In this document: one piece after another, positions 11,826 to 63,952 of the stretch
Numbering within the stretch: position 1 is the stretch's first letter
Layout: each line of letters starts with the position of its first letter
Assembly: GCA_030765065.1 (NCBI GenBank)
Contig: CM060987.1
Span: 70,690,557 to 70,754,556, forward strand
Origin: Deroplatys truncata
Lineage: Eukaryota; Arthropoda; Insecta; Mantodea; Mantidae
DNA length: 64,000 nt
Reading direction: 5' to 3'
Position numbers and translations under genes: made by a program
The notes under the pieces: generated by a model
Databases searched by the model: none
The model's input: only the letters and a program-made list of their open reading frames with translations
What the model was told of the DNA's origin: nothing

Positions 11826-11932
11826 CGTGGAAGTGGGCCAAACCAGTGCCTTATGCTTGTAGTACAGAGTTAGTCAAAGCGGTGCACAGAAGTTGACGGT
11901 TGTGAACCGCGCGCTCACTCGAAGGAATTTTG

Positions 11933-12802
11933 AAAAATCTGAAGAGTTGCACTCACATGATTTTCTCTATTCTTGTACAACTATTTTTACAAACGCTTAT
12001 TCTCCATCTATTTCATGTTAATCGAGATATGGAGATGTTAATCTTATTGATAATTTTGTTGTAGGTGCAAGGAGAATATTGTGGGATTTAAGGGATAGTC
12101 AAATATTTTAAGAGCTGGTTGCTATGTGGAGCATTCTATTCTCTTTACATGTCCAGGACATAAAAAACAAGAATAACGAGTTCCTATTTTAGAAAAAGTA
12201 TAAGTATTTGAAAATTCAAACAAATAACAGGGAATATCTCTGAAATGGTTCACTGGACGAAAAAAAAATGTATATGACATAACTTGTGTGTTTTAACGAG
12301 ATCTACATTTTTTGTGTAGTAAAATTCTGTCTCTTACGGTGTACCAGCTATGCGAAAGTCATTCAGAATGAAGAGGGCTTTTGGGGACATTCCCAGAAAA
12401 TTCAAGATATATATTTAATTTGCCATGAAATTATCTTAAACATATGGTATTTTAATCAAAATTGTTAGAGCCATTTTTGAGAAAACCGAAATTTGCAAAA
12501 AATGTTCCATATAAACGGTAGTCTGGGGTGGAGGGATTTTCTTTATAATCTTCGTATCGCATCCTTGGAAGATTAAATACCAAGTTTGGTATTTATCCGA
12601 CTTTTCGATTTTGAGTTGCTATTCACAGACTGAGATAGAAATACAGAGAGACAGACAGACAGACACACACACACATACACACGGACATGTTTCCTAAAAT
12701 GCTTTATTTGTATTCAGGTCACCTCAAAACATGTATTTCCGGTGAAATCTCGATATCGAATTACTTCCCCTACTTACTATAAGTAGCAGAGAAGGTAAAA
12801 AT
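11933..12802 (+). mobile_element. Repeat A, copy A3, near full length
   Basis: Begins AAAAATCTGAAGAGTTGCAC and carries the subterminal motif near 11960 (ATTTTCTCTAT). It runs through the AGATCTACATTTTTTGTGTAG, AATCAAAATTGTTAGAGCC and AAATACCAAGTTTGG blocks and an ACAGAC/CACA tract at about 12650-12690, ending with GCAGAGAAGGTAAAAAT. No coding capacity. Belongs to subfamily 1 (CTTGTACAA, GAGCTGGTTGCTATGTGG). Confidence 0.8.
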
Positions 12803-14340
12803 TAACTTGCTCATAAGAACCAGCACTTTTAGTTTGACCGAGTGTACATACTAGCCACAAAATTTCATGCTGCTATGTTAGTTACATGATAGAATATATA
12901 CAGGCATACACAGGCGGGTAACCATTCTAACTCCAATATAACACCAATTGTCATTATACAATAGGTAAAAGAGTGGAGCTGTAAGATTTGAATGGTAATT
13001 GAAGTAGTAAAACTAAACAGGAATATACACAAAAAGTTTACTATGTTTTTATTGTCATTAATACTATTACAATGGAAATTTAATATTGACAAATTATGTT
13101 TATGCCTTAATCATTGACAGTCGGTTGAAGCAGAATAAATATTTGAGTTTGTACTACGTAGCGCTTGTTATTTGTGATTTTCTATGTACTGCTTAAATAA
13201 TAAACAGTTTTATGTTTGGAAAATCAGTTATTTATTTTTACTTTGATTGGCTTTGCCCAAGAGCAATGAGACTCTCTTTCTTTATTTCTTTCGAAATAAG
13301 ATTCTTTTTTAACAATTTTAAATTTTACATAATTTTTTGTTATTACAATTTTGATTTCGTATTTCTCAAAATTGATTAATACCTAACAAAATTTCAAGAA
13401 CGACTTTATAATTATTACTACAATGCGAATTCTGTGATCTGATTTCTAATATTATGTTATATTCTTTGGTGTGGCGCAAACTTTATATATGTAATCATTA
13501 TATCTCAATTAGGTTCTTATATATTTGTGAGAAGCCAATTTACAATATATTCATCATGGAAAATCTAAGTTCACGTATGCGTGGTTAGTTTACTATTTCT
13601 TTTCCCACTTAACTATACACAGATACCATGATTAGTGCTCGACCTTCCACCAAATATCTTCCCACTATATATTTTTCTCCTCTTTATCTTAAGCAATAAT
13701 TTTGCTTCTGTACCGATCACGCGACCACATCACAAAAGACATAATTGCGTTCCTTTTTTATAGCTTGTTCATTTTTCTCCTTCTTTGACAACGGTGTCTA
13801 ATTGTTGACCACACTCGTTGCTAGCGTTCATTGTTTATTTCAACTGTTATTTCTCTACACATTGTATTTACATATTTAACCTTAGAAATCTTTCCTGTCG
13901 TTCTTTTATCATCTAATGAGATTTTCCTTGTGTTTTTCATAATTACATTCACTATATATTACAATTTCTAAATATTATTAATAATTTACGTTAATTTAAT
14001 TTCTATTACTTCCTCTTCTTCTCTTGATGTGAATTTATATAATCAATTAATTAATTTCCATCTCACGGATTTGCGCTTAAAGTGGGAGTGGAATTTTCAT
14101 CAATGAAATAAGGGAATGTCCGCTAAGGTCTGGAATACCACGGAGTGACTCTACAGCAGTAATGGCAAAGCTTTCATGACTAATGTGCAAATTATAGTCA
14201 GGTTTATTATTTTAAATTGTCTAGTGTGCCCTCGGATATCATCTTTTAAGGGGATACTAAAATATATGGCAAAAATTACCAAAGTGACATTTTTAGCTTT
14301 TTATGCAGTCTTATAAATTGGAATTTCCTCCTTCATTTTA
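12803..14340. other. Unassigned AT-rich DNA
   Basis: No coding region, terminus or RNA gene that I can support. Very AT-rich, with a TA/CA run at its right edge next to the transposon end. Confidence 0.6.
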
Positions 14341-14362
14341 TATATATATACACACATACATA

Positions 14363-16221: not shown

Positions 16222-16269
<48 letters not shown>

Positions 16270-17566: not shown

Positions 17567-17674
17567 CTTTAATAACTACAATGGTTAGTTTAATTACAAT
17601 GGTCTTTTGAAACATATTATTGTCTATATGCAATGACGTGAACACGTATTCGCTTATCTTTGGGTTTCTAGTAA

Positions 17675-17870
17675 ACTTTTGGCTTTAATCATTAAATCAC
17701 TCACACATACACACACACATTCACGCACTCATTCATACTTTCAGATTCTGCGAAGGATAGGGAACAATCTTGCCTAGAGAAGAATTCCCACACCCCCCCC
17801 CCCCAGGCGGGACTCGAAACGGGACACCTCCCCCAACACAGCAAGCAGGTGCTCTACCAGCCTAGCTTCG
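17675..17870 (-). mobile_element. SINE family S2, partial copy
   Basis: Minus-strand tRNA-like head (GGTAGAGCACCTGCTTGC, then TTTCGAGTCCCGCC), a long G-run, then AGAATCTGAAAGTATGAATG, a TG-rich tract and TTTAATGATTAAA. It matches the order seen at 57545-57825 and 60644-60930 but lacks their 3' third. Confidence 0.7.
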
Positions 17871-21054: not shown

Positions 21055-22628
21055 AAAATATCTGGGTTTACATTCACGACTTTCTCTACTCATTCTCCTA
21101 CAAACTATTCTTACAAAAGCTTATTTTTCTATCTACTTCATGTTAATCGAGAGAATGTTTGCAGGAACGGTTTCATTACACATTTCGTTGTAGGTTCACG
21201 AGAGGGACACAGGAGGCTGAAGCTAATCTTTATAAAGCGGATCGTTACATGCCGGCTTTGAAATGCAATTCTCTTTGCACGACTGCGAGAAAGCACCATG
21301 GTGCTCTAGCACTTAAAAATAGAATGAAGCATGTGAAAATATGAATGAGCCAATTGCGGCTCTTCTTTCACCGAGTGGCTGTTTTCGTAGAGATGGCCGC
21401 AGTTCTTTCATGTACCTGGAATCAAGATCTACAATTCTCGGCCCCTGCTTGTCATTGCGCCGGCAGCTTGATTAACATCAGTAGTCGGCTACACCAGGTT
21501 TCTACAGCGCCTGCCAGGTTGCGTCCTTTCCGCCAGTATTGGTAGCGTTTATGCTTATAGGTAACGCATCACCTGACCTTCCCAGTACCCCCAGAGCGAT
21601 GCGTTCCGAGGAAGAAGAGTTGTGACAGTTCTCGACGACCAGCAAAGAAGGACTTTTCTTGAGCTTCGTGGGAACGGCCGTCTCCGCACTTTTCGGCCTT
21701 GTCTAAATTATAAATAACATATATTTTGGCATAAGTAAAATTCAAAATTGTTTTAGTGTGTGGAGCGGCATTTAAAATCTTATGGAAGCGAGTTTATATC
21801 TTGTCATCGCGAGTTAAATATCATTTCAAAATGGCAAATATTATGTGAGAAGGACAAATTCAAATGCAATGTGCTTCAATTGTAATACATTTCTGTTTCT
21901 ACATTTGAATGTTAATATATTCAGTACTTTTGGGGTTGTATGGATTGTTACTTTTATTTAGAGCGACCTTAAATCCTTGTTTCATTTCCTTTAACCTTTG
22001 GTAGTAGGTACAAACAATTATTACTCTGAGGAAATGCTTTTATTTCCAATGCATTCTATAATAGGCCCGCATTTTATTTTTCTAGTTTTTTTTTTTTTAG
22101 TAATTGTGACATTCTATGCATCGACTACTTTTTAAGTCGGCCTTGCATGAACGTTACAAAAACAATGACAACGATTATCTCGAAAATAATTAGTCATAAA
22201 ACTGATTTGACATAAATTGTGTATTTTAACTAGATCTACATCCCCCCCTTTGCGTAGTAGAAATTATACAAAATTAATTCAGAAGTTGAGGATTTCACAG
22301 GCTATACACAGCAAATTCAATATATACATTTTATTAGTCATACCAGTGACTTAAACGTAAGGTTATTTTAATCAAAATCGTTATACCTATTTTTGGGAAT
22401 ATAAAAGATAGCGAAACATTTTCCCTATAAACGGAATTTTCTTGAAGCTCTTCGCATCTTAGGACAACGCTCAACTTAAATATTCGCGCAGGTCTTTTTC
22501 TAAAATAATTTATTTTCATTCAGGAGTCGCAAAACATGCATTTACGGTGAAATTTCGATATTGAAGTTTTGGGTAGAATACGTTACTTCATCTATCTACT
22601 AAAGGTAGGCAGTGGAGAAACTAAAAAC
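21055..22628 (+). mobile_element. Repeat A, copy A4/A5, interrupted
   Basis: The 5' part (21055-21345) carries ACTTTCTCTACT at 21079 and AATCGAGAGAATGTTTGCAG. The 3' part (about 22155-22628) resumes at the ATTATCTCGAAAATAATTAG block and runs to GGCAGTGGAGAAACTAAAAA. About 800 bp of unrelated DNA separates them. The 3' part lacks most of the CA tract. Confidence 0.65.
21346..22154. other. Unassigned insert within repeat A
   Basis: The first about 370 bp are GC-rich and unlike the surroundings; the rest is AT-rich with a T-run at 22088-22101. No termini, target duplication or coding domain found. Confidence 0.45.
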
Positions 22629-25243: not shown

Positions 25244-26484
25244 AGAAGGACATTTTGAAGACATGTAGGTAGACAACAAATAATGGAGATTCAGCCACGG
25301 TTTCAAATTGAGTTAAAATATCATACAGTCCCTTCCAGCGTTTTAATAAAATATTTGCTTCAGATGCTTCAGTTGGGATTGGCTGCACTGAGAATTCAGC
25401 TTTTAGAAGTCATTGAAGTTGTGGTTGTAACATCCAAAATTGTTAGTTATTAGATTTAGAATTTTTGACAAGCAAATAAGAACTAAGATTCAGTGGCGGC
25501 CAGAGCATGAACTCACTAACACTGCCAACACTGATTTACCTACTGGAAATTAGACATGGTCATTATTAGAGTGGTCTGACTCGTTGTGTTTCCCTAAAAC
25601 AAGCTCCAAATTTCCAAATAAGTGGATACGATTTATTATTACATTTAGCACCTACTAGGTGCTCTTGTCCACTTCTTCGCTAAGCTTTAATGAAGCCTTG
25701 CAGAAATTGCGAAGCTTGGAATATTTAAGTCTTCTTGGTTTACCGTCCCACCTTTGGGAAGCTCTGCAGGCAGAAGCGACTTCGCTGTTTTCTTTTAAAT
25801 ATGAATAAAGAGACATGATCGCACTTGTCAAAATGTAAAATAAAATACGATTTTGCGCACAAATGTCACAATGCAAAATATCATTAATTCCTTAATTAGC
25901 ACTGCAGTGACTCTTTTTGTATAACATAATGTTGTCACCTCTACATACACGTGCTGCCACATGGAACCGTGTAAGGTACTAATTGGCTCGGATATGTGCT
26001 ATCCTCTTACCCCTCGACAACCGCAAAGTCCATAAAGGAAGCACGGAGTTCTACTGCGCATGTCTGAGACGTGCTATTGTACTGCCGCCCAGACACGAAT
26101 CCATACGATAGTAATGTTACTTTCCAACTTCATTAGTTCTGGTAGTTATCGACATGCGTGTCTCTGCATTCTTCATTGGGAAGAATTATAATTGTATTCC
26201 TGTTACACGTTTGTTTGTGTTCGTGTGTGTGTGTGTGTGTGTGCGTGTGTGTTAATAATAATGTTTATATGTAATAAATTTTGAATTTTAATTAATTATG
26301 ATTTTTATTTAATTTATTAACGCACGGCTGCATCAGTTATATCTGGTACAGCAAGTATCTTTAACAAGGGTGGTACGGCTGTAGATATGAAAAACCATTT
26401 ACTTAAGTATTTACGTTTGGAGCTGAAAGATATTACATCTATATATGTGATAACGAACTGCAGTGTACAGAGAATTTCGCGTTA
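25244..26484. other. Unassigned DNA with a (TG)n run
   Basis: No gene recognised. A minus-strand open frame at 25655-25876 (73 residues) has no known motif. A (TG)n tract lies at about 26222-26252. Confidence 0.5.
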
Positions 26485-27290
26485 AAAAATCTGATGTGTT
26501 ACACTCACATGACTTTCTCTACTCTTGTACAAACTATTTTTACAAACGCTTATTCTCCATATGCTTCATGTTAATCGAGATATCGAGATGTCGATCTTAT
26601 TGCTAATTTTCTTGTAGATGCAAGGGGAATATGGTAGGTTTTAAGCGCTGGTTGCTATGTGACGCATTCCATTCTCTTTGCATGTCCAGAACATAAAAAA
26701 ATGAATAACGAATTTGAAAAAAGTATAGGTATTGGAAAATTTAAGGGAATAACAAGCAATAACTCGAAAATGGTGCACTCAACAAAAAAAAGTATATGAC
26801 ATAAATTGTGTATTTTAACGCGATCTACATTTTTTGCGTAGTAAAATTTTGTCTATCTCATGGTTTACCAGTTATGCAAAAGTCGTTCACAATAAAGAAT
26901 ACTTTTGGAGACATTCCCCGAAAATTCAAGATATACATTTTATTTGTCATAAACATATCTTAAACATATGATATTTTAATCAAAATCGTTGGAGCCATTT
27001 TTGAGAAAATTAAAATTTTCGAAAAATCTTCCATGTAAAGGGTAATCTGGGGTGGGGGGATTTTCTTGAAAACCTTCGTGTCGCATCCTTGGAAGACACT
27101 GAACCTAAATACCAAGTTTGGTGTTTATCCAACTGTTCCTTTCTGAGTTATGCTGTTCACAGACACACACACACACACATACACACACGGACATGTTTCC
27201 AAAAATCCTTTTTTTGGATTCAGGGTGTCTCAAAACATGTATTTCCGATGAAATCTCGGTATCGAATAGAGTAGTAGAGAAAGTAAAAAT
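26485..27290 (+). mobile_element. Repeat A, copy A6, full length (reference copy)
   Basis: AAAAAATCTGATGTGTTACA at the 5' end, ACTTTCTCTAC at 26512-26522, then the core blocks, a CA tract at about 27161-27187, and GTAGAGAAAGTAAAAAT at 27274-27290. About 806 bp with no long open frame. Subfamily 1. Confidence 0.85.
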
Positions 27291-27914: not shown

Positions 27915-28600
27915 AAAAATAAAATGGTGTGTTACATTCACACTTATATAAATGTCTACAAATTATTCTCATGAACGCTTGTGTTTCCCTTCATGTTAAT
28001 CGAGATAATCGTTTTCGGAAAACGTTTCATTACACATTTCGTTATAGGTACAAGGGACATACGGAAAACCGAAGTGTAAGTCAAATGTTTAAAAGCAGGT
28101 CGCTATATGCTGATCCTGTTATTCTATAACACATTCTTTCTACAGCATCGAAACAATGAGTAGTGAAGCACTTAAGAAAACGACGAAGTATTGAAAATTT
28201 CAAACCAATAACGGATATTTCGGAAATGACTAATGCCACAACAAAAGTTATTTGAAATAATTCGGCGAAGGTTCTACATTTTTGTATAGTAATTTTTGTC
28301 TATTTCTTAGTGCTCTACAAAGCTATACGAAATTCCTTATGAATCAGAAGACTTCAAAGGCTATTCTTAAAAAATTCAAGATACGCATTTGATTTAATAT
28401 AAAAATAGCTTAAATATATGGCATGATAATCAAAATTGTTCTAGCCATTTTTCAGAAAATAAAAAGCAACTAAACAGTTTCCATATAATAGATAGTTAAG
28501 GCTGAGGGTTTTGTTAAAAATCTGTGTGTCGCATCTTTGGAAAATACTGAAGTTAAACACCAAGTTTCGTTTTTGAGTCATGCTTAAACACACACATACA

Positions 28601-28675
<75 letters not shown>

Positions 28676-28830
28676 TCACACTCACACAAACACACACATG
28701 TTTTTCTAAAAATGCTCCCTTTGATTCAGGGGGCCTCAAAATATGTATTCTATTGAAAACTCTTAATCGAATTTTTCATAAAATAAAATAATTTCCCTAT
28801 TATCTGCTAAGTATATGGTAGAGAAGATAA
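27915..28830 (+). mobile_element. Repeat A, copy A7, with expanded CA tract
   Basis: All core blocks are present in order, from GTGTTACATTCACAC to ATGGTAGAGAAGATAA. The internal microsatellite at 28585-28697 has grown to over 100 bp of CA with CT and CACATA interruptions, at the position where other copies have 15-35 bp. Confidence 0.75.
28585..28697. repeat. Long (CA)n/(CT)n microsatellite
   Basis: Compound CA/CT tract. Both strands stay open over it, giving spurious cysteine- or threonine-rich frames. Confidence 0.95.
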
Positions 28831-30905
28831 CAGTCGTGTATAGAACCATAATATGTTTACCCCTCCCTTAAATAAAATTTAGGCGAGGTAAAATTAGGAA
28901 AACCAGCTACAAATCTGACGGGTTTGGAAACTTAGTCAATGATATCCTATCTGAATTCAAAAAATGAACTTGGTTGCACTGTTGTAAACGGAAGCCAACT
29001 TTAAAGTTTTGCATTTGAATTATTGAATGTAAAAGGGACCATGAGTGAAATCACTGCCTACAAATTCTTTAGAAAACTCTTAACCGTTCCATTAGACCTC
29101 GTCGCTTTACAGGCTGTCATTAACTGCTTTCCGAGACACGCAAACCAACGAAACCAAACAAAGGAAGGTTTTGTTTCTCAGCCTCGCATTAGCGTCCTTG
29201 AAGCAGCAGTCAGTCACTCACGCTGGTAATTTCTGGGTATGACCGCGTGCATTACTTCTTTTGTTCGGCGCTAAAAGCAGAGAGAGTGGATATGCCATAT
29301 ACAACCGTGGTGATGGATGACTTCGAACAAATTCCGTTCCTTTCCGCGCGCCATTAATTACGTCACGTAGTAGTAAAAGGAAATGAAGCTTTCTGGACAG
29401 CAAAACGTGATGCGCGTGTGTTGCTGTAAGTGCTTATCTTAGGCGGTGTCAACGCATTCTTTTGGACTAGGAGGTCTGACACCTGGCAGCAGCACTGCAT
29501 AGACTCAGTTAACTCTGTTCTTAAAATCCCGTTCATTTCAGTACCACTTTTTCCACTGCTTTGCCTGGCTACGGTATCTAAAAAAAGTACAGTAAAACCT
29601 CACTTAACTGAATTGCGTTTAACTGAAACGGCGGAGGAGGGGGGGGATAAGAAAGAAAGAAATTCGCGCTGGCAAAGTTCCTACGACAACGGCAATCTCT
29701 TTCTTCCCAACCCTAAATCCCAATACATGTACTGTGTTCCTCTCACGAGAATGTGTCTAAGGAATGTGTTGACAACAACAATTCTAGCGCTTACTAATTT
29801 CAACGTATCAACAAGGCTTAAGGTCTCTTAGAACACATATGCCCTTGTGCTAGCAATGCCGAATAGCCAGTTGCTTTATTTGCCTTCGTCAAGGTTTTAA
29901 CAACATTAGCAACTATTTCTTGAGATTGACTTGTAGAGTTCTTCCTTACTTACTGGGCATTGTAAATGACTTTATAAATCACTGGATAAAACTTACGCAC
30001 TGCTCCAAGTGAAACCGCCGGAACACTAAGGTTACGCGATGTTTTTAATGTAGATAGTAGATCTATTCATGACATCGTGAGGTGCCACGTGGCACTGTCC
30101 CTCCCTTGCTCTTCCGAGAGTAGAACACTCCGCAAACGTTTTCTCGTCAGAGGCCTACAGTACATGGTATTGTATGCAGTTAATCCTCGCCCCCACATTC
30201 CAAGAAATATTGTAGCCTAAATATAAAATGTTAACTGCTTGCACACGCAGTCAATGCGGAGGCCCACTGTTATTTTACTGCTGGTGTTCGTCAGTGTGGT
30301 TTATTTGTGTTTCAAGAGAAAAGAAATCGTATTGTAATAAGCACTGAACAGAACTCTACGCCGTTGGAAAGCTGGAAAATGGAAAATTGTTATGAGCGAC
30401 AGAATGGCAGCGGACGAGGGATTCAAAGTGTTAGAGTAAGAAAGACCACAAATTCATATTGAAATCTTAACAGGAAATATTGAATTACGGCACTATTAAT
30501 AACACAAAACCTTTGTTTTTAGGATGCTTCGCGCTTTGTAATAAAGAAGTGAATCAACGCCAACAGATATAATGCTTATTAAACAGCGGCATCATTTGCA
30601 AGCATTGCGAGAAAAAAGTTTTAAAAAGTAATTTTTAAGTAGGTACTGAAATGGATATTTTATTGTTGTACACAGTAATCGTTATTAAACATTACATGAA
30701 TTTGGAATAGAAATAGTTACTTCCTTTCGAAGCTTACAATCGGTGCCGACCTCCCGAAAGCTTTGGTCCATAGTCGCTAAGTTGTAAAATTGTAGAATCG
30801 ATGTTAAAACTGGGGAGTGAATGCCGAGGTTTGTGGAATATTCCATATACAGCATCACAAGTGTCGTTGCCATGACACCTCACAAACACACCAGTTTATG
30901 AAATG
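28831..30905. other. Unassigned DNA with a pogo-like terminus
   Basis: At 29588 a TA is followed by CAGTAAAACCTCACTTAACT, which resembles the terminal repeat of pogo/Tigger-type elements. No matching right end was seen, so this would be a solo or broken end. An open frame of 133 codons at 29430-29831 has no domain that I recognise. The remainder shows nothing. Confidence 0.4.
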
Positions 30906-34301: not shown

Positions 34302-37300
34302 TCAAATGCGCAGATTAAAATCACTGTCACGAATAAAACGTAAAACACATTCTACAGCACGCGCGACGTCTGCCAAAACGTTGGCTGGGCCAACAGGCAG
34401 ACCAACACGAACGCGCAATGGAGCTAAAACTTGACACACTGTTAAGATGTGAGCACCGTTAAGGGCGCATCACACTGCTCGCATACTGGTGCGGGGTCAC
34501 CACTAAGCAGGTATCTATTACTAAAAAGGCAATTTCCGATTCGTAGGCGGGCTAAAAGTACCTCTTCCCGACGACACGAACGAGAAGAGGTACCCCAACT
34601 AACGGGAGAGGCTTAACCTCCTGCAACTTGTTCCCCCGGAGGGCCGTCCACTCATCCCTCTAAAGCGAGAGGATGCGGTTACGTAAAATAACAAACAAAT
34701 CTGTGGAGGGAACAACAGAGGTAAAATATCTGGGTAATAAAATCGCCGACCTGGCAGCGGCGTCGTCAGACACACTACCTGAGATGCTCACATGACCTGG
34801 ATTCCACATGAAGGAGACGCTGATGCCAGAAACACCAAGCGAGTGGAGCAGGTCATGGATGCGCTGTACGAGCAGGTGGTAACTGTACAGCGAGCTAATA
34901 CTTTGAAGAGCACTCAGGGAGTCTGAACTTATAAAATAGCGCCGTAAGACGTGCCGCTGAATGTATAAAAGAGACTGATAAATGCTAAAATGTTCGGCGA
35001 TAAAAATCCAACATTGCCCCGGTAAACGAAAGGTAAACCTATTTCCACACAAACAAAGGCACATCCTACTCCAGCATCGTCTTAGATCCATCAGTAAAGA
35101 TAAAATGAAAGTCCCCGAATTGTGACTGAAGTTCTAAAAACGCTGATCTAAAGACTGAAGAACAGGTCTCATTCTTCGGCATCGACGATAACCCAAGGAG
35201 ACAGTGGGCCTCAGCGCGAACCATGGAGGAAAACGCGTTTCCCCCCTTGGAAGGGCCGGCGCTGGCGTAACGTCCAAATGCCGAAGCAGTTGACGAAATC
35301 GAACCCCTGGAGGGAGCAATGCAGAGGAGCTAACTAAATATTGCCGATCAAGCGAATCCCCGTAAAATATTGCGAAGGACGGGTGGTCAGGCAAACTGGA
35401 GAGTCGACAGGCATAGCTGCACAAAAGTATCTCGCGCCTGGAAGACAGCGGAGGCTCTGCAGCTTCAGCGTAAAGACTGGGTACGGGGTTAGTTGGAAAG
35501 GCCCCTGTAGCGACTCTAATACCACGATGATGAATGGGATTCAAGTGACGTAACACAGATGGACGTGCCGATAAATAGACAATGCACCCGTAATCAAGTT
35601 TGGATCGGACCATAGAGCGATAAAGACGCAGAAGGACGGTCCGATCAGCTCCCCAGGATGTGCCACTTAAAACACGTAAAAGATTAAGAGAACGGTCACA
35701 CTTTGCCTTTAAAAAGGAAACTGAGATGTCCAGCTCAGCTTTCGATCAAAGATCAACCCCAAAAATTTCACCTCGTCTGCAAACGGAAGGATCTCCGGCC
35801 CAAGATGAAGAGAGGGCGGAAGGAAAGCCTTCCGGCGCCAGAAATTAATACAGACGGATTTCTCGGCGGAGAAATTAAAGCCGCCGGCGTTACTCCAGGC
35901 ATAGAGACGGTCAATACAGCTCTGGAGACGGCGTTCGAGTAGACAGGTCCGCCGTGAACTGCAATAAATGCCAAAATCGTCAACAAAAAGGGACGATGAA
36001 ATGCCAGGTGGAATACAAACAACAACGGGGTTAAAAGCAATTGCAAAAAGTGTGGCACTGAGTACAGAGCCCTGCGGTACTCCGTTCTCTTGAATAAAAC
36101 GACTAGATAAAACCGAGCTCACACGTACACGAAAGACGCGGTCCGTCATAAACTCCCGAAGAAATATGAGAAGACGACCGCGAATATTCCATGCGTGAAG
36201 TGTACGTAAAATACCGCCCCTCCAACAAGTGTCATAAGCTTTCTCCAAGTCAAAAACACAGCCACGGTTTGACTCTTTCTCAGAAATCCATTCATAACAT
36301 GCGTCGATAGGGACACGAGATGGTCGACGGTAGAGCGATAGCGACGAAATCCGCACTGAGCGTTCGCTAGAAGTTTCTGAAACTAAAGCCACCATGTCAA
36401 CCGCCCGTTGATCATGCGCTCCACCACCTTGCAAATGCAACTGGTGAGGGAGATAGGGCGGTAGCTGGAAGGTAGTTGGCGATCCTTCCCAGGCTTAAGT
36501 ATAGGGACAACGGTGGCTTCCTGCCAAACGGAAGGAAAAATACCGTCTTGCCAAATACGGTTATAGACCTGTAAGAGAAAGAGTTTACTGACGGCTGAAA
36601 GGTTCTGTAACATCAGGACATGAATGCCGTCCGGCCCAGGAGCGGAGTGCCGAGAGCAATGAAGAGCGTGCTCCAGCTCCCTCATTGTGAAAAGTTCGTT
36701 ATAGCATTCATTATTAGCAGTCCGAAAATTATATGTTGCGGAATCCAGCCGGTCTTTGATAGAGCGAAAGCCGGCGGAATAATGGTCTGAACTGGAAACC
36801 GCCTCAAAGTCAGTACCCTGAGCGTTAGCAATGGCAGCCGAATCCACTATGGTGGCATTGGAAACCTGAAGGCCAGACACAGTACATTGCAACACTTTAC
36901 CTGAAAAGCGACGAAGTTTATCCCAAACAACAGAGGAAGGTGTGAAGCAATTAAAACACTCGACAAAACGAGTCCAAGATGCCTTCTTACTATCCTGAAT
37001 AATGCGACGAGCCTGGCGCGCGATTGTTTAAACGTAACCAAATTATCAAGTGTATGTGTCGCCGAAACACCCTAAGTGCAGATCTACGGGCACGAACGGC
37101 AACCCAACACTCCTCGTTCCATCAAGGAACAGGAATCCGTCGAGGGTGAGAGGATGAACGGGGAATTGCGCGTTCGGCGGCAGATAGAATCGTAGACGCA
37201 AGGTGCTGCACCATTTGGTTAACGTCGGTAAAGGGCTGGTCCGCAAAAGACACGATGCTGGAATACAATATCCAGTCGGCTTTTGTGAATATCTAGGTAG

Positions 37301-47612: not shown

Positions 47613-48522
47613 AATTTGTACTTTTTCTACTACGTAGAGTAAGTAGGGGAAGTATTGTATTATTATATTCCACCCAAAAATTCGATACCGAGATTTCACC
47701 GGAAATGCATGTTTTGAGATACCCTGAATCCAAAAAAAGCATTTTTGGAAACATGTCGGTGTATGTGTCTGTGAACAGCATAACTCAGAAACGAACAGTC
47801 GGATAAACACCAAACTTGGTATTTAGGTTCAGTATCTTCCAAGGATGCGACACGAAGGTTTACAAAAAATCCCCCCACCCCAGAGTACCCTTTACATGGA
47901 AGATTTTTCGAAAATTTTAATTTTCTCAAAAATGGCTCTAACGATTTTGATTAAAATATCATAGGTTTAAGATATTTTTATGACAAATAAAATGTATATC
48001 TTGAATTTTCTGGGAATGTCTCCAAACGTATTCTTCATTGTGAACGACTTTTGCATAACTGGTAAACCATAAGAGATAGACAAAATTATACTACACAAAT
48101 CGCGTGTAGATCGTGTTACAATACACAATTTATGTCATATACATTTTTTTTTGTTGAGTGAACCATTTTCGAGATATTACTTGTTATTCCCTTAAATTTT
48201 TCAATACTTATTTTCTCAAATGGGAATTCGTTATTCATTTTTTTGTCTTGGATATGCAAAGAGTATTAATCTGTGGGAAAGGGAATGGTGCTGCACCTAG
48301 CAACCAGCTATTAAGAGATATGCATGTTCTTAAAGGCTACTGTATTTCGATACTGCCCTTGTAAATATATATTCCCCTTACATCTACAAGAAAATTAGCA
48401 ATAAGATAGAGTCTGCAAATGTTTATCTCAATTAACATGAAGTAGATGGAGAATAAGCGTTTGTATAAATAGTTTATACAAGAGTAGAGAATGTCATGTG
48501 AGTGGAACACATCAGATTTTTA
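47613..48522 (-). mobile_element. Repeat A, copy M1, full length
   Basis: Minus strand. The 3' hairpin is visible at 47620-47644: ACTTTTTCTAC-TAC-GTAGAGTAAGT on the plus strand. The 5' subterminal motif is at 48484-48494 (GTAGAGAATGT) with the AT-rich end ATCAGATTTTTAA beyond. All core blocks are present. The CA tract is reduced. Subfamily 1. Confidence 0.85.
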
Positions 48523-49864: not shown

Positions 49865-50748
49865 AAAAAAATCTGACGCGTTACGTTAAAATGACTTTCT
49901 ATACCCCGCTGTCGTTTATTAGTGGCTATTCAAATCATTCTTGCGAAAGTTTACTTTTCTATACACTTCATTTTAAACAAGATATAGCTCCAGATAAAGC
50001 TACGTAATATATTTCGAATTAATTCTTTTTATTCAAACATGTTTATGTTTAATTAGAGGTTTCATATCGTTAAGATTTTGATTTTTCTGTGTATATTTAC
50101 TTCTCTAGAATAAAGTGTGCTTAGTACTGCAAAAACATATTATTGAATTATAGCAGCAGCTGATACAAGCAGAACAGCAATAGTAAAATGTTAAGAGCTG
50201 GACGTTATATGTTGGCCTTAAAATTGCATACTGCTTCCATGCAACCGCGAGAAACAACTGAAAATCGATATGACTTAAAAGATGAAATATTGATCAAATC
50301 GTACAATTAATAACGGGTATCTCGGAAACGGCTTATAGCACGAAAAGTTATTTGAAATAAATTGTGTGTTTTATAGATATGTACATTCTTTTGTAGCACG
50401 TTTTGTCTATAGCTTAGTGTTTATTAATACCTTCTGAATGAAGAGGACTTCTCAGGCTACTCCCAGAAAATTCAATATACGTTTATTTTACATGTAAATA
50501 GCTTTAATATATGGTATTTAAACACAAGCCGTTTCAAAACTTTTGAAAAATCTTTCATGTAAAGGGTAGTTGTGTTGCATCTTTGGAAGATACAGAACTT
50601 AAATACCAAGTTTTTCGTTCACACACGCACAGACTTTTTCTAGCCTCAAAACATGTATTTCCGGTGAAATCTCGATATCAAATGTTTAGTGGAATGCAAT
50701 ACCTTCTACATATACCTACTATATACGTGTTAGAGAAGGTGAAAATAT
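49865..50748 (+). mobile_element. Repeat A, copy A9/A10, with internal insert
   Basis: Starts AAAAAAATCTGACGCGTTAC with ACTTTCTATAC close by. The 5' part goes to about 50010, then comes about 160 bp of unrelated AT-rich sequence. The core resumes at 50180 (GTTAAGAGCTGGACGTTATA) and ends GTTAGAGAAGGTGAAAATAT. Subfamily 2. Confidence 0.65.
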
Positions 50749-52289: not shown

Positions 52290-54170
52290 GCTTGACATGA
52301 ATTATGCTCTCTACCCTCTATTTGTATTAGTGGGTATACAAACTATTCCAACTAAAGCTTATTTTTCTATCTACTACGTTTTAACCCATATAAGCCTTTG
52401 CAGAAATCGCTGCATTGCACATTTCATTATAGATACAAAGAGAAGACGATAGTCAAATGTTTAAGAACTGGACGCTATACGCTGGTCTTAAAATTCCATT
52501 CTGTTTCCATGCAATGGCGAGAAACAACTGAATGTTGGCAGGATTTTAAGAGAATTACCAAGTAATGAACAATTAAAACCATTAATAAAGGATACCTCGG
52601 AAATGACTTATGCCAGAAAAAAGCTCATTTGAAATAAATTGTGTGTTTTAAATAAATCTAAATTTGTGTGTTGTACTTTTCGTTTATCGCTTACCAGTTA
52701 TGCAAGATTACAAAAATTTACAAAATTCCTTCCGAAAGAAGAGTTCACAGGCTATTTCCAGAAAATTCGAGATATACATTTTGTCATGTAAATATATAAA
52801 ATGATATTTTGTTCAAATTTGTTAAAGCCATTTTTTAGAAAATAAAATTCGTCGAAAAAATTTTCATGTCAAGGGTAGTTTGCGGTTGGAGAATTTTTTG
52901 AAAATATTCGGGTCGCCCCGGAAAATACTGAACTTAAACACAGAAGCAGGTCCCGTCGTTATTAATTATTATTGTAATTATGCAGCTTTATTTATTATAA
53001 GGACCCGACGTAACGGTTGCTCGACTCTAATTAATATTTAATGAATCAATTATTGAGCCTGCAAAATACGAGCTCGTGCCTTCTATTTTGCAGATGCATC
53101 GATGTCCTCTTCTCTTCTGTTCTTCGGCTGCGTCGGTTCTTTTATTCTTAATTGAGCATGAGACTGGGTTGGAGATCTTAGGGTATGGAGCGTAAGAAAA
53201 TTAATGTTTGAAGACACTGATTAACATTAAATTGTTGAATTTAATTTTAATGATTTGCGAATACGAGTTAAATGATAAACACTTTACAAGATTCGGTGCT
53301 GCTTACGTCGGACTCATTTCCACTTTGTTGAATTTAGATTGTTGTACTTCACTGTTCTTTACGGCGCGGAATTCAATACTAACATCACACTGTTTAGTAA
53401 CATTTGTAAGTTCGCGACTAAGTGTACACGGAGACTTCACTTCAAAGTTATCTTCAACGCACACACAATGCTATATTTGGATTAATCCATTGTTAATTTT
53501 TGCCGCGGAGTTTTATAACATAGTGTCGGAGGTTTGTTCCACAAGTGAGTTCGCAAGGAGACTGAATTTTGTTGTCTGACACCAGCTTATATACACGGAG
53601 TGTCTGGGATGTGGAATTTTCTCTTGAATTTTCTGATTGATTATTAATAAACGCGATTTCGAAGTTTAAAGAAATCTGGAGGGCGTTTAGGCTTTTCCTA
53701 TTCATCCCTTAAAACTCACATGGTTTAAGACAATCCAGGAGTCCCCGGCTTCAAGATAAGTTTGAGATACCCTTAGCGTCAGTCACTTACGTCTTTCTAG
53801 TATGTATAGTCATAAAACACTTTTGAGAAAATATATATAACAAAGTATTAAAATAACACACATGTAGTTTAACACAAAGAACGCATTTAAACACACTGAT
53901 TACATGAATTACATATACTATATACATGATTACCAATATGACATTAATATAGCATAAAATACTGCTTCAATGCCAAGTTTGGTACATATCCGATTTTTCG
54001 TTTTTGAGTTATGCTGTTCACACACAGACACGACATGTTTCCAAAAATGCTTTCTTTACTGGGTTTCAGGGTGCCTCAAAAGGTGTAATTCCAATGAAAT
54101 CTCGTTATTGAATTTTTGGGTGGAATGCAATATCTTCTATACCTACCAGGTACGCGGAAGAGAAAGTAAT
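52290..54170 (+). mobile_element. Repeat A, copy A12, split by an X-related insert
   Basis: 52290-52945 runs from CTCTCTACCCTCTATTTGTA to GAAAATACTGAACTTAAACA, then stops within the block that elsewhere reads AAATACCAAGTTTGG. The copy resumes at about 53966 with ATGCCAAGTTTGG and ends GGAAGAGAAAGTAAT. Subfamily 2. The split point is inside one conserved block, which shows an insertion and not two copies. Confidence 0.72.
52946..53965. mobile_element. About 1-kb insert, possibly related to repeat X
   Basis: Begins GCAGGTCCCGTCGTTATT and ends GCATAAAATACTGC. Repeat X copies begin GCAGTA...GTCGTGTTAT and end GATATAAAATACTGC, so the termini look alike although the interiors do not. The 123-codon frame at 53208-53579 has no recognisable domain. 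No target duplication found. Confidence 0.45.
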
Positions 54171-54596
54171 AAGGTAAATAATACGTACAAAACGTTTATG
54201 AGAAGTAACTACTTATTACAGCTTGCAAAGTAACTAACCGCTGTTTTCTTTAAAGATATTCTTATGTAATTGTTGATAGCAGTGTTTTGTTGTTTTTTTA
54301 ACATCAAATAACTTTTTCAGGAGCAACTACCTTTCGTCAAACACAATTTCGAAATTTGAATAGTTTTTAAAAATCTCGATGCTTCAAATAAGGGACCATT
54401 TTCAACTCAATGATTTCTGTTAATAAGTAAATAAATTGTTTTATTTGTCAAAAAGTTACAAAATTATGCCTTTATGACTATAATTTGAGTTGAAGTCTTC
54501 TAATTGCATTCTAAGAGACTCCTAAATGCAAATGGGTTTAAAACCATTGTACATACATATATTTTTCACGTGAACACTTAGAATAACTGAAACTAT
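54171..54596. other. Unassigned AT-rich DNA
   Basis: Nothing supported. Confidence 0.5.
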
Positions 54597-55372
54597 ATAA
54601 AATATCTGAAAGCGTTACATTTACATGACCTTCACTACAGTCTATTGTATATTATTGGTATAAAACTATTCATATTAAAACATATTTTGGCTCTACTTCA
54701 TTTTAATGCAGATAAACCTTTGCAGAAATAGTTACCTACATTACACGTGGAATTTTAAGGCCAGCATAGATATAGCGTCCAGTTCTCAAACATTTGAATG
54801 TCGTTCCCCTTGTATCTGCATGCAATCGTGAGAAACAAGTGAAATTCGACAGGACTTTTAAAGAAGTATTGAACATATTGAGCCATTAATAAAGGATATC
54901 TCAGAAATAGTTGATGCCACAAAAATGTTATTTTAAATGTATTATATGTTTTAAAGAGAGCCACATTTTTTGTGTAGCACGTTTTCGTCTATCGCTTAAC
55001 GTTTACCAGTTATACAAGATTATACAAAACTCCTTCTGAATAAAGAGAACTTCACAGGCTCTTCAAAGAAAATTCAATATATAAATTTTATTTGTCATGT
55101 AAATATCTTTAATATATGATATTTTAATCAAAATCATTACATCCATTTTTAGAAAACCATAAATTTCGAAAAATGTTCCATGTAAAGGGAGTTTAGAGTG
55201 GGGGGATTTTCTTGGAAACCTTCGTGTGGCATCTTTGGAAGATCTGAACCTAAATACCATTCTTTTTACGTTCAGGGGATCTCAAAACATATCTCTGGTG
55301 AAATCCTGACATCGAATTTTTGGATGGAATGCAATACTTCCTATACGTACTATATGTAGCAGAGAAAGTAAT
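54597..55372 (+). mobile_element. Repeat A, copy A14, with internal micro-inversion
   Basis: Full-length subfamily 2 copy from AATATCTGAAAGCGTTACAT to GCAGAGAAAGTAAT. The block 54747-54818 lies in reverse orientation relative to other copies while its flanks are in order. The CA tract is deleted: the AAATACCA block is followed directly by the TTTTTACGTTCAGGGG block. Confidence 0.78.
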
Positions 55373-55555
55373 AGGTTGGAAACCAAATATTCATTTGTCG
55401 GTTAAAATGCACGCTTACAGAGACCACTCGTTAACTATAAATGAATAGCTGCCTCTTTCTCTGATTTTCAGTTCATAAAAACAGTTAAACAATTTTGGAG
55501 GAGACCAATGCAATACTAGCCCAACCTAATGTTGACTTTTTTCTACCGCTTATCT

Positions 55556-58334: not shown

Positions 58335-59188
58335 TGATTTTACTTTCTCTACTACGTAGAGTAAGTAGGGGAAGTATTGCATTCCAACCAAAAATTCGAT
58401 ACCGATATTTCACCGTAAATACATGTTTTGAGGCCCCGAATCAAAAAAGAAGCATTTTTAGAAAAAGGTCCTTGTGTGTGACTGAACAGCATAACTCAAA
58501 AATGAAAAATCGGATAAATACCAAATTTGGTATTTAGGTCCAGCATCTCTCAAAGATGCGGCACAAAGATTTCCAAGGAAATCCCCTCACACCGGACTAT
58601 TACATGGAACATTTTTTCGAAAATTTTGATTTTCTCAAAAATGGCTCTAACGATTTTGATTAAAATGTCATTATTTGAGATATTTTTATGGCAAACGAAA
58701 TATATATCTCGAATTTTGTGGGAATGTCCCCAAAAGTACTCTTCATTGTGAATGGCTTTTGCACGACTGGTACACCATATGATATAGACAAACTTTTACT
58801 ACACAAAAAATGTATATCTCGTTAAAACACACAATTTATTTCAAATTTTTTCGTCGAGTGACCCATTTCAGAGATATTCCTTGTTATGTGTATGAATTTT
58901 CTGATACTTATACTTTTTCTCAAATCGGAATTCGTTATTATTTTTTTTATGTCCTGGACATGCAAAGAGAATGGAATGGTACACATAGCAACCAGCTCTT
59001 AAAAGATTTGTCTATTGCATAAAGCCTACCATAAAGCCCCTTGCACCTATAAGAAAATTAGCAATAAGTTAGTTTCTGCAAATGTTTTTCTGGATTAATA
59101 GGAAGTAGATGGAAAATAGATGTTTATAACAATAGCTTGTACAAGAGTAGAGAGAGTCATACGAGTGCAACACCTCAGATTTTTAAAA
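58335..59188 (-). mobile_element. Repeat A, copy M2, full length
   Basis: The 3' hairpin at 58342-58366 (ACTTTCTCTAC-TAC-GTAGAGTAAGT on the plus strand) is the cleanest in the window. The 5' subterminal motif is GTAGAGAGAGT at 59147-59157, followed by the AT-rich 5' end CTCAGATTTTTAAAA. Core blocks are all present; the CA tract is nearly lost (GTGTGTGA). Subfamily 1. Confidence 0.85.
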
Positions 59189-59670
59189 TTATCTTCTGCA
59201 ATCGCTTCTTATAAAATTGAGGGAACCACAGGCCAGCGTAACCTTATGTAGGAAGTATAGCAGAGTCTCATAACTATCGCAGCTTTCTCAGAACTTTCAG
59301 CAATATTCTCAACATTAATAGTTACTACTCTTATCAAATAACTCTGTTAAATTAGTTTGAAATGTATGTCAAACTATGACCGGCAGAAGAAAATTATTAC
59401 GATTACGGATTATAAGATATGCTTAATTTCACACCCCAAAGTTTCAATACAAGAGTTAAAGTAACAGTTCAACAAAATATGTGCTTAAAATAAAATCGTA
59501 ATAAAACAATTGCGTGATTGAAAATCTGATCTGCTATATCCATATGTCTTTCTTTACGCTCTATCGCTTATTAGTGGGTATACAAGTTATTCTAACAAAA
59601 GCTTATTTTTCTGTCTACTTCATTTCAATACAAATAAACCTTTGTATAAATAGCTGCATTATACATTTAC

Positions 59671-60493
59671 AGATATTTGTCCAGCCCAGCACGACCAGAA
59701 TCATCAAAATTCGTGGAAAATTCTCAAGGTGTCCTAAATCTATTCAATTATAACTAGGGTCGGAACAACTGACCAATTAAACGAGTTGTCTTTCAACGAT
59801 ATATTCAATAAGAATAATGTATAACATGCACCAAAGGCGTTAACGAAACTCCAAGTTATATAGCAACTTAATTGATACATAAAAGCACAATCACGATGTA
59901 AAGCATGCCAAGAAATTACAATTGAGAATAAAAAACACCAAAGCTTACTTAAGATTCAAAATAGTTTCGCGAATTCCTAATCTAAAGTATTTCTCAGAAA
60001 TAACATAGCTGAAATTCAGCTAAAGCCACGCTTCACGTCAACAGCAGCAGGAATAAACAGCCTGAGTCTTGGCCTTCTCCCAATATAACAAATTGCAACA
60101 AAAAGCTGCCCACATTATCACCGTTTCGAGCGAATTCTAAACTAGACTTGCAGGTTATAAAAGGACCAATAAATAATTTCTGACTCTCGAAGCTAAAAGA
60201 GAGCACTCAGCATTGAAAAATTGTGGAAAGGATTAAAGGAATTTCCAACAAGAACCAAATAAAACCCTTATAGTTTTAACCTCCACAACCGAACACGTAC
60301 CTGTACATGTGATACCACAATTACAAACATTAAAAAGTAAAACACCTTCGCTGCCCCGTCGCACGAATAGAACTAGACGTCCGAGGCTACCAAAACTTAA
60401 GAGGCATGACAGAAAATGGGAATCATAATTGCCGAAAATTTTCTTTTAACTTTCGATAAGTCGAACGTCCAGAAGGGAAAAAATAACCGGCAC
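59671..60493. other. Unassigned insert within repeat A
   Basis: No terminal repeats, coding domain or match elsewhere in the window found. Confidence 0.4.
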
Positions 60494-60643
60494 AATACAA
60501 AGGGAACAGCGATAGTCAGATGTTTAACAACTGAACGCTATACGCTGCCTTAAAATTCCTACTGTTTCCATGCAATCACGAGAAACAACTGAAGGTTGAA
60601 ATGACTTTAAAGAATGACCAAGTAATGAACAATTCGAACCTAG

Positions 60644-60930
60644 CTGGCCCCGTGGCTCAGTCGGTAGAGCACCTACCTGTTGTGCTAGTGGTCCCGGGTT
60701 CGGGTGGGAATTATTCTATAGCCAAGATCATTCTCTAACCTCCCCTCCCCAGAGTCTGGAAGTATGAATGTGTGTATGATCTAATGATTAAAAACCTAAG
60801 TGCAAGATACCCAACGACAAGGGTTACACGAGTTAACACCATTGCCAATAGGCAATAAGTTACAAAGGAAGGGCCACCGATAAGACCAATGCAGTTATAG
60901 GCGGGGTATAACTTGAACTAATAAAAAAAC
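60644..60930 (+). mobile_element. SINE family S2, best copy
   Basis: GCTGGCCCCGTGGCTCAGTC then GGTAGAGCACC (A box), GGTCCCGGGTTCGGG (B box), AGTCTGGAAGTATGAATGTG, ATGATTAAAAACC, a CACCGATAAGACCAATGCAG then TTATAGGCGGGGTATA tail, and an A-rich end. The head resembles a tRNA but has no acceptor pairing. Flanking GAACC/GAACT repeats at the insertion point in copy A15 suggest a short, degenerate target duplication. Confidence 0.82.
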
Positions 60931-61788
60931 TAGAACTACTGATAATGGAAATGGCCAATGCCGCAAAAAATGTATTTGACGAAAATTGTGTGTTTTAAAG
61001 AGATCTAAATTTCTTTTCTAGTACGTTTCATCTATCGCTTAACTTTTACTAGTTATACAAGATTATACAAAATTCCTTTCGAATGAGGAGGACTTCAAAG
61101 ACTATTCCCAGAAAATTCAAGATATATATTTTATTTATCATGTAAATATCATTAATATATGGTATTTTAGGCAAAACCGTTATAGCCATTTTTTATAGAA
61201 TAAAACATTTGGAATAACACATACCTATGCAAAGGTTATTTGGGGTGAGGGAATTTTCTTTAAAATCTTCGTGTCGCATCTTTAGAAGGTACTGAATCTA
61301 AATACTGAGTTTGGTGTTTATCCAACTTTTCGTTTTTGAGTTGTGCTGTTCACAGACAGACACTGACCTTTTTCTAAAAAGGCTTTTATTCAGGGGCTTA
61401 AAAACATATAGCATTATACCCAAAAAAGTCCCTATAATGTACCTGGTAGAGAAAGTAAAAATATTTAAAAATTAAAACATTAAAAACAGAGAAATTCCGA
61501 TTCAAATATGAAGTATCAGCTTTGATAGTAGTCATGTATTATCGTGTTCAACTTAAAAAACCTGTAATCCAAGGAGACAATAATTGTCACCACGGAAAAA
61601 AAATAAATAAATAAAAAAAAAAAAAACTTACGGACTAGGCTTTCCCATTTAGTACGAACAGGAAGAAAAGCTGTCGACGCGTAAGCTGCCAATAATTAGC
61701 CTTTAACATTTCAGGAATAGTAATAAGTAGTTTAATAGAGTTATACAAAACCCTATGAAGGATAAAACAATAGTTGCAATTGAACCCT

Positions 61789-62596
61789 GAAAATCTTAGT
61801 GATACATTCACATGACTTTCTCTACCCTCTATCGTTTATTAGTGCTTACTAAAGCTTACTTTTCTGTCTATTGCATTTTAAATCTTTGCAGAAATAGCTA
61901 CATTACACATACAAAGGGAACAGCGATAGTCAAATGTTTAAGAACTGGACGCTATATGTTGCATTAAAATTCCATACTGCTTCCATGGCAATCACGAGAA
62001 AACTGAAAATCGATGGGACTTGAAAACAACGACAAAGTAATGAACAAATCGAACCATTAATAACGAATATCTTGGAAATGGCTAATGCTACAAAAAACGT
62101 TATTTGAATAAATTGTGACTTTAAATAGACTATATTTTTTGTATTGTACGTTTTTGTCTATTGCTTAATGTTTAGCAATTATACAAGATTCACAAAATTC
62201 CTTTCAAATGAAGATGACCTCCCAGAAAATTAAACATTTTATTTATGATGTAAATATCTTAATTATATAGTGTTTTATTCAAAATTGTTAGAGCCTTTTT
62301 TATAAAATCAAAAATTTGGAAAAATGTTCCGTGTAAAGGGTAGTTTGGGATGGGGGATTTTATTGAGTATCTTCGTATCACATCTTCGTATTTATCGACT
62401 TTTCGTTTCTAAGTTTACAGACGCTCGCGGGCGTTTGCACACACGCACACACACACGCGGAGCTTTTTCTAAAGATTACTTTATTTAAATGCAGTGGCCT
62501 CAAAATATGTATTTAAGGTGAAATCTCGGTATCGAATTTTTGGGTGGAACGTAATACCTTCTTTGCTACTACGTACGTAGTAGAGGAAGTAAAAAT
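61789..62596 (+). mobile_element. Repeat A, copy A16, full length with perfect 3' palindrome
   Basis: ACTTTCTCTAC at 61815-61825. The end shows CTACTACGTACGTAGTAG, a perfect 18-bp palindrome at 62566-62583, then GAGGAAGTAAAAAT. CA tract at about 62435-62460. Subfamily 2. Confidence 0.83.
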
Positions 62597-63151
62597 CAGG
62601 GGAAAAACAATGTTAAAAAATTAAACAAAATAAACATAAACAATAGGAGTCGCCTAAAATAACATATGCTTAACTTTAAGAGGAAATTGAACATGACACG
62701 ACAATAGATGCTGTCAAAATTCCTTAGGCAACACAAAGACTACAGAGCTCCCCGAGAGAATCCAAAGCACCAAATGAACCATTAATAGTGACTCCACGCC
62801 GAACCAGTCAAATAAACTTGTGTTAGCACCAGCATTGAGAAAGTTCTTAAAAAAAGCATGAATATGAAACATATAATTCCCCAACATAATACAAACAAAG
62901 GCCTCTGAAAATGATATAAAGACGTGGAAACCAATAGTTTCTATGTAGGTAGTACTGAAGAAGAATATGATTTGTTTATTTTGTAAGCTGGCCAAGAGGA
63001 CTTACACATACTTTCACAGAAAATACATTATTGATCACGTAAATACTAATTACCCGTGTGAATAATTCGCACTATCTTGTCCAATATCTACAATGTCATT
63101 CACCCTTCCTTATCGCTGGACTCGCCTTGTTGGCAGTAGTGACAAGAGCAG
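62597..63151. other. Unassigned DNA
   Basis: A 93-codon minus-strand frame (62714-62995) is rich in hydrophobic residues but matches nothing that I recognise. Confidence 0.5.
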
Positions 63152-63952
63152 AAAAAAGCTGACCATGACTTTCTCTACTCTTGTAAAAACTATTTTTACA
63201 AACGCTTATTCTCCATCTACTTCATGTTAATCTATATAAAATTTGCAGAAACTATCTTATTGCTGATTTTCTTATAGGTACAAGGGGAATATGGTAGGCT
63301 TTAACCGATAGTAAAATCTTTTAAGAGCTGGTTGCTATGTGGAGCATGTCCAGGACATAAAAAAAAAGAATAACGAATTCCCATTGGAGAAACAGTATAA
63401 ATATCAGAAAATTCATACACATAACAAGGAATATCTCGTAAGTGGTTCATTAATAAAAAGAAGTATATGACATAAATTGTATGTTTTAACGATATCTGTA
63501 TTTTTTGTGTAGAAAACTTCTGTCTATCTCTTACGGTTTATCAGTTATGCAAAATTCATTAAGAATGATGAGGACTTTTGGGGACATTCCCATAAAATTC
63601 AAGAAACACATTTTATTTGTCCCGAAAATAACTTAAATATATTTTTTTAAAAAATCGTTAGAGTCCTTTTCGAGGAAATCAACATTTTCGAAAAATGTTT
63701 CATGTAGGGGTAGTCTGGGGTAGTGTTGCATCTTTGAAAGAAACTGAACCTAAATATCAAGTTTGGTTTTGATCTGACTTTTCGTTTTTAAGTTATGCTG
63801 TTCACAGACACCACACGGACCTTTTTCTGAAAATCCTTTTTTTTAATTCAGGCGGCCTTAAAACATGTATTTCCGGTAAAATCTCGACTCCGAATTTTTG
63901 GGTGGAATGCAATACTTCCCCTTCTTGCTATACGTAGTAGAGATGTTAAAAA
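63152..63952 (+). mobile_element. Repeat A, copy A17, full length
   Basis: ACTTTCTCTAC at 63168-63178 and a TACGTAGTAGAGATGTTAAAAA end. The core is intact. Subfamily 1 (CTTGTAAAAACTATTTTTAC, GAGCTGGTTGCTATGTGG). The CA tract is contracted. Confidence 0.83.

Follow-up and report, generated by a model that had tools for sequence, protein, structure and literature searches.

We assign repeat A, a repeat of about 0.8 kb, to the non-autonomous Helentrons (HINE, DINE-1-like) with a probability of roughly 95%, and propose that it is copied by the Helentron protein of ~10 kb elements situated elsewhere in the genome. Judging from sequence, these intact-looking, enzyme-coding elements, which have the same two ends, very probably move repeat A. 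The features of the class found here are subterminal inverted repeats (subTIRs), a partial inverted repeat, a 3' palindrome, insertion into T-runs and the ends of an autonomous Helentron. The original prediction had read repeat A as a Helentron-associated, HINE/DINE-1-like element; the ends and the Rep partner agree with that reading, but the element had been read backwards.

In the window, the whole 64,000-bp stretch of DNA analysed from a 4.29-Gb genome, a profile built from 8 copies of repeat A matched 28 stretches at E≤1e-3, and repeat A accounted for 13,038 of the 64,000 bp (20.4%) in the profile search. Pairwise identity among the 8 aligned copies is 62–90%, meaning that the window copies are mostly old and belong to several subfamilies. 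Conservation drops to the left of AAAAATCTG and to the right of GTAGAGAAAGTAAAAA. Within the repeat, the least conserved 20-nt blocks (0.59–0.67) lie between model positions 121 and 280, and this variable middle is flanked by 5' and 3' blocks that are better conserved. In the copy on which the original prediction was based, the A-runs on both sides may be element or target sequence. The main copies and their features are listed in Table 1.

Table 1. Copies of repeat A and their sequence features, with positions in the window.
Feature	Position	Strand	Remark
Repeat A, copy of the original prediction (26k)	26484..27289	-	5' end at 27289 in Rep-sense
5' subterminal inverted repeat ACTTTCTCTAC	27274..27284	-	5 nt from 5' end
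CA/TG microsatellite in 5' block	27161..27188	-	
3' subterminal inverted repeat, GTAGAGAAAGT in Rep-sense	26512..26522	-	22–28 nt from 3' end across copies
3' palindrome, 5-bp stem ATGTG/CACAT, 7-nt loop	26494..26510	-	between 3' subTIR and 3' end
5' partial inverted repeat nested in 5' subTIR	47620..47644	+	9/11 pairs plus a wobble
5' partial inverted repeat, second copy	58342..58366	+	10/11 pairs
Repeat A copy (12k)	11932..12803	-	profile match
Repeat A copy, split by other DNA at 21343–22162	21055..22622	-	
Repeat A copy, diverged	27917..28834	-	profile match
Repeat A copy (48k)	47615..48521	+	end-to-end with an older, different copy (47157–47615); one A-run common to both
Repeat A copy	49865..50746	-	3' flank is another copy's interior (49270–49856), at a T-run
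Repeat A copy, split by ~1 kb	52335..54171	-	
Repeat A copy	54598..55373	-	profile match
Repeat A copy (59k)	58337..59184	+	profile match
Repeat A copy, split twice	59518..61461	-	
Repeat A copy	61791..62595	-	profile match
Repeat A copy	63146..63948	-	profile match

Other repeats share the window with repeat A and some of them interrupt it. At 60641–60941 a repeat A copy is split by an insert that resembles a SINE and has a tRNA-like head (GGCCCCGTGGCTCAGTCGGTAGAGCA), with kin stretches at 17603–17791 and 57607–57831; ARAGORN called no tRNA in the search on this insert. A repeat of ~0.9 kb with 36-bp tandem units is present at 671–1599 and 8204–9077 (82% identical), and the first of these copies splits an old repeat A (299–673 and 1611–1942). 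An ORF at 15210–15815 encodes a DUF4817 helix-turn-helix domain between inverted repeats of ~330 bp (14339–14668 and 15917–16245); the named relatives of this transposase-like ORF belong to bees, ants, a cockroach and a stick insect, which makes an insect the likely source of the window. On the minus strand, positions 34660–39345 hold an apparently broken non-LTR retrotransposon, among whose several ORFs one encodes a reverse transcriptase and another an endonuclease domain. A regular-expression scan of the window for the Rep motif gave a single loose match, within a transposase-like ORF. Pattern scans gave no match in genome contigs and three single matches in viral contigs (L001–L003), none of which contained repeat A by profile at E≤10, and the five end sequences of repeat A, sought as text in papers, had no match.

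Looking at the ends in the orientation of the original prediction, the left one reads A-run, TCTGATGTGTTACACTCACATG and ACTTTCTCTAC, and the right one GTAGAGAAAGT followed by an A-run. The 11-bp inverted repeat ACTTTCTCTAC is placed asymmetrically, 22–28 nt from the left end and ~5 nt from the right. Allowing at most one mismatch, the window contains 20 occurrences of it where 1.29 would be expected, and none of 100 shuffles reaches this number. With up to 2 mismatches, 13 of the 14 left ends and 10 of the 14 right ends carry the subTIR; among the four right ends without a match, the 12k copy had been read at a wrong coordinate. Exact copies are present at the Helentron loci. The ~0.8 kb repeat and the motif near its left end are real, as is the complement of ACTTTCTCTAC that had been predicted near the other end; what does not stand is the labelling of the left end as 5'.

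In published HINE and DINE-1 the subTIR lies 0–4 nt from the 5' end and is internal at the 3' end, where a stem-loop comes after it (PMC4067079, PMC2374699, as far as their descriptions of the layout go); DINE-1 has, in addition, a partial inverted repeat by the 5' subTIR, a microsatellite in the 5' block and a variable middle (PMC2374699). By its sequence layout, repeat A fits this anatomy only when it is read from the minus strand. Since the near-terminal subTIR marks the 5' end in the published elements, the hairpin ACTTNCTCTAC-GTA-GTAGAGAAAGT, which is present in imperfect form at both sites cited for it and had been labelled 3', belongs to the 5' end. The Rep of the partner also reads along the minus strand of repeat A, and this confirms the reversal without recourse to the anatomy. 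Thus, the hairpin end at 27274–27289 is the 5' end, and 26484–26522, with the ATGTG/CACAT palindrome, is the true 3' end.

Both the 48k and the 59k copy have the 5' partial inverted repeat, which young copies carry in a shortened form; the 26k copy has lost the inner hairpin arm. The ATGTG/CACAT stem is retained in the Helentron 3' ends, where it belongs to the exact 33-nt terminus of 14 of 15 loci, and similar short stems also occur in 7–8% of control stretches, making it a weak sign alone. Covariation supported neither hairpin, as 260 of 500 and 162 of 500 shuffles paired equally well. The CA tract was found ~100–130 bp from the right end, and in the 12k copy the matching place also carries CAGA units.

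The autonomous Rep/helicase partner with the same terminal sequence, anticipated by the original prediction, was found in the same genome with both ends in common. A Helitron_like_N search of this genome gave at least 152 Rep matches (291 candidates, 150 scored), and among the matches listed many had no internal stop, with frames of up to 2,543 aa. Helentron loci were selected for open Rep frames (1,218–2,543 aa), so that they do not sample the matches at random; 17 were taken and the 15 with both sides complete were tabulated, leaving out C1 at 33.2 Mb and C10 at 14.4 Mb, each with one side incomplete. At 14 of the 15 loci the Helentron ends with the exact 33-nt 3' terminus GTAGAGAAAGTTATGTGAATGTAACACATCAGA, followed by a T-run and varied flanks; at the fifteenth (H_C7_306) the corresponding position matches it imperfectly. 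The 26k copy of repeat A is identical to this terminus at 31 of 33 positions and the 48k copy at 29 of 33. Eight of 13 window ends score at least 18 against the Helentron 3' end and five score lower; this threshold is the 99.9% point of a control made of 20,000 pieces picked at random from the window, which can include pieces of repeat A.

The Helentron 5' block begins with a T-run and ACTTTCTCTACTACGTATAGTAAGTAGGGGAAG. Its identity to the 26k copy is 86.6% (643 nt compared) and to the 48k copy 84.9% (812 nt), as against 78% for the 12k copy and 76% for the 59k copy. An inverted second piece of the 5' block (model 154–441) follows in 13 of 15 Helentrons, the other two showing a related arrangement. 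At the 3' end, four young repeat A copies from elsewhere are 92–97.5% identical to the Helentrons over 38–40 nt, and an ungapped comparison of the last 60 nt (two young copies and the 26k copy) gave 41–45 identical positions. According to the published classification, a family shares subTIRs identical over at least 11 bp and a subfamily 80% identity over the last 60 bp. As the latter value is not reached, the Helentrons belong to the same family and to another subfamily, and the closest partner of repeat A may be a relative outside the Helentrons fetched. One Helentron copy is 98.7–99.5% identical to six others over ~6.3 kb, meaning that copying is recent.

What defines a Helentron is the fusion of an AP endonuclease to a Rep/helicase protein. 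The ORF at L018:1078–8301 (2,408 aa) comprises Herpes_teg_N (67–212), DUF6570 (800–927), Helitron_like_N (1043–1234, E=1.4e-27) and PIF1 (1698–1920, E=3.4e-27). No endonuclease family was listed in the whole-protein family scan at E≤0.01; the C-terminal 258 aa alone matched Exo_endo_phos_2 (5.1e-6, 26.8 bits, below the Pfam cut-off of 27.4) and, weakly, Exo_endo_phos. The GDFN and SDH motifs were present in 4 of the 5 ORFs read, the frame of the C5 copy breaking upstream of them. In the solved-structure search the whole protein matched PIF1 helicases and the Helraiser Helitron protein, and the C-terminal piece gave one match at E 0.47. Six of the 7 loci read have EFQMRGSPHEH as Rep motif 2 (the remaining one, C1, was read in the wrong orientation), and the S of this motif (RGSPHxH) is a Helentron mark (Thomas et al. 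2014, PMC4067079, in its account of the Rep motifs). On these predicted domains and motifs, the partner protein is a Rep-PIF1 helicase-AP endonuclease, hence a Helentron.

Two further traits of this ORF were observed. Its N-terminus (L018:1078–3477) matches Herpes_teg_N, a herpesvirus tegument peptidase family, at 1.2e-9, and may correspond to the OTU-type proteases described in other Helentrons (PMC4067079). A 63-bp tandem repeat (21 codons, ~18 units) occupies L018:1990–3117; its register shifts from copy to copy, and some of the variation in ORF length may stem from it.

Directly in front of 14 of the 15 Helentrons lie between one and three 5' halves of repeat A (model ~888 to 253), the junction being at the central T-run, and zero to two 3' remainders (model ~255 to 12) come after the Helentron. 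By manual reading, the numbers of 5' halves and 3' remainders are 0/0 at C10_96; 1/0 at C4_69, C13_170, C13_75, C1_248, C4_193 and C9_66; 1/1 at C3_172 and C5_31; 2/1 at C5_94, C13_112, C7_306 and C8_76, the last of which additionally carries an inserted full repeat A; 2/2 at C9_126; and 3/2 at C13_23. Simple nesting would predict equal numbers of the two; the 5' halves are in excess in 11 loci, equal in 4 and fewer in none. The innermost junction CGTTATTCATTTT is common to 11 of the 15 loci, which are thus largely copies of one composite, so that these events are not independent. Several composites (C1_248, C13_170 and C4_69) end exactly at the Helentron 3' terminus in differing flanks: those of C1_248 are not repeat A, and those of C13_170 and C4_69 are two different T-runs of other repeat A copies. 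The unit of a 5' half plus Helentron has therefore moved as one piece.

From this arrangement we infer that the composites arose by rolling-circle copying that began at the outer 5' end and finished at the first 3' end reached; Thomas et al. (PMC4067079) raise both end bypass and composite transposition as possibilities in their Discussion. On balance, we lean towards a history in which the Helentron landed in the central T-run of its derivative and now spreads mainly as a stacked composite, outer-5'-to-inner-3' copying having locked on one to three 5' halves. The alternative, that the 3' remainders were lost by deletion or ectopic recombination and not through rolling-circle start and stop, is unlikely: the copies do sit in repeat-rich DNA and the shared junction reduces the number of independent events, but deletion accounts poorly for composites that stop exactly at the Helentron terminus in differing flanks, or for an excess that is never on the side of the 3' remainders. 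Among keyword-searchable open-access titles and abstract openings, none concerned repeat A or stacked Helentron 5' halves.

A second Helitron_like_N group (e.g. L004–L011) has far higher scores, up to 196 bits, and internal stops in most of its best-scoring matches. The existence of this group, together with the mere 38–40 nt that the fetched Helentrons share with repeat A at the 3' end, could suggest that repeat A, though a rolling-circle element, depends for its movement on a different Helitron lineage of this genome. We hold this to be very improbable, since it is the intact-frame group that carries the repeat A ends at the 15 tabulated loci, with 85–87% identity in the 5' block over 640–812 nt to the 26k and 48k copies. 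A canonical Helitron (Helitron1) has 5' TC and 3' CTRR and inserts between A and T. This class was rejected, as the ends observed here are a T-run with ACTTTC and CAGATTTT, inserted inside T-runs.

The original prediction of no clean target duplication held. For 11 window copies the best non-A match between a copy's own flanks averaged 1.09 nt, compared with 0.97 nt in 110 mismatched pairings, which is near chance level; three of the 11 had matches of 3–5 nt and none exceeded 5 nt. No empty site was found within the window, where one joined flank matched solely via its end-to-end neighbour copy. Filled and empty sites could be compared at the Helentron loci. At C8, a full repeat A lies within the Helentron as AAAGGCTACTGTA-T6-(repeat A)-T7-CTATATTGCG, and all 14 other tabulated Helentrons have the same site unbroken, as AAAGGCT(A/T)CTGTA followed by T8 (12 loci) or T7 (2 loci) and CTA(T/A)ATTG. 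At three loci (C8, C9_126 and C4_69) one repeat A is nested in the central T-run of another, with T5 before and T7–T8 after, and in 13 unbroken copies this run is T7–T8 (9 copies) or T4–T6 (4 copies). Taken together, these comparisons point to insertion into a T-run with no non-T base duplicated, and show no fixed-length duplication outside a T-run. About 5 extra Ts, element-borne or duplicated, accompany each insertion, and a target duplication made of Ts only may occur. The T-run measures 2–6 at 54 exact 5' ends and 4–9 at 41 of 43 exact 3' ends, being 0 at the other two.

These data bear on two other origins. Repeat A would be a MITE, a cut-and-paste remnant with ACTTTCTCTAC terminal inverted repeats, if its 11-bp inverted repeats at both ends were taken at face value, and some papers filed DINE-1-like elements under that name (PMC4067079 and PMC2374699, in passages on classification). 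This is hardly credible: the repeats are asymmetric (22–28 nt against ~5 nt inside the ends), target duplication is not above chance, the element in which these ends were found encodes a Rep/helicase, and stacked 5' halves without 3' remainders are not expected from cut-and-paste. Neither the symmetrical terminal inverted repeats nor the fixed-length duplication of the cut-and-paste class was found, and this class was rejected. A SINE or LINE-derived retroposon, whose poly(A) tail would be the terminal A-run, has practically no chance, as the short A-runs and the CA tract that recall one are countered by A/T-runs at both ends, own-flank duplications never above 5 nt, and two ends and a 5' block common to a Rep/helicase element.

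As a non-autonomous Helentron, repeat A can be set beside known systems. Like HINE-Mo, HINE-Cq and the Helentrons described by Thomas, Vadnagara and Pritham (2014, PMC4067079), it has one subTIR close to the 5' end and the other further in at the 3' end, a 3' palindrome and T-rich targets with a variable number of Ts, no duplication being reported in that description either; the partners, too, share Rep, PIF1 and endonuclease with the RGSPHxH motif. In contrast, the 3' subTIR of repeat A is 22–28 nt from the end (38–60 in that account), and the subTIR sequence is not itself fully palindromic and matches none of those named there. The partner differs from those of HINE-Mo and HINE-Cq in having only the last 38–40 nt in common at the 3' end, and its ORF differs from those described there in its Herpes_teg_N-like N-terminus and 63-bp tandem repeats. 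With Drosophila DINE-1 (Yang and Barbash 2008, PMC2374699), compared by its published description, repeat A shares a partial inverted repeat by the 5' subTIR, a microsatellite in the 5' block, a variable middle, a stem-loop just past the 3' subTIR and insertion at TT; the subTIR is 11 bp here against 13 bp, and the microsatellite CA/TG against mainly GTCY. Helitron2/FoHeli of Fusarium (PMC5148889) resembles repeat A in its asymmetric terminal inverted repeats, a 3' end in ATTTT and hairpins; FoHeli1/2 insert between TNAT and A, whereas repeat A enters a T-run, and the account of FoHeli given there mentions no endonuclease, unlike the partner here.

The shared ends suggest how repeat A may be copied. 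The Helentron protein would recognise the 5' end, made of the T-run, ACTTTCTCTAC and the partial inverted repeat, then nick it and peel off one strand by rolling circle. Copying would end at the 3' subTIR with the ATGTG/CACAT palindrome and CAGATTTT, and the strand, presumably single, would enter a same-strand T-run, at sites where the non-T flank is not duplicated. In nested elements, copying from the 5' end of the outer element through to the 3' end of the inner one could yield the composites observed.

In the Discussion of Thomas et al. (2014, PMC4067079), Helentron end bypass and T-run nicking are hypotheses needing biochemical studies. One genome here offers recently copied, intact-looking Helentrons, a non-autonomous partner with both ends in common, near-identical filled and empty T-run sites and graded composites, and this set makes start/stop polarity and the T-run target directly testable. 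If the spread as stacked composites is true, the number of 5' halves would be a count of nesting cycles, and the polarity of Helentron transposition would be readable from sequence alone. For annotation, repeat A should be filed as a HINE and read in the opposite direction, its diverged copies making up a fifth of the window.
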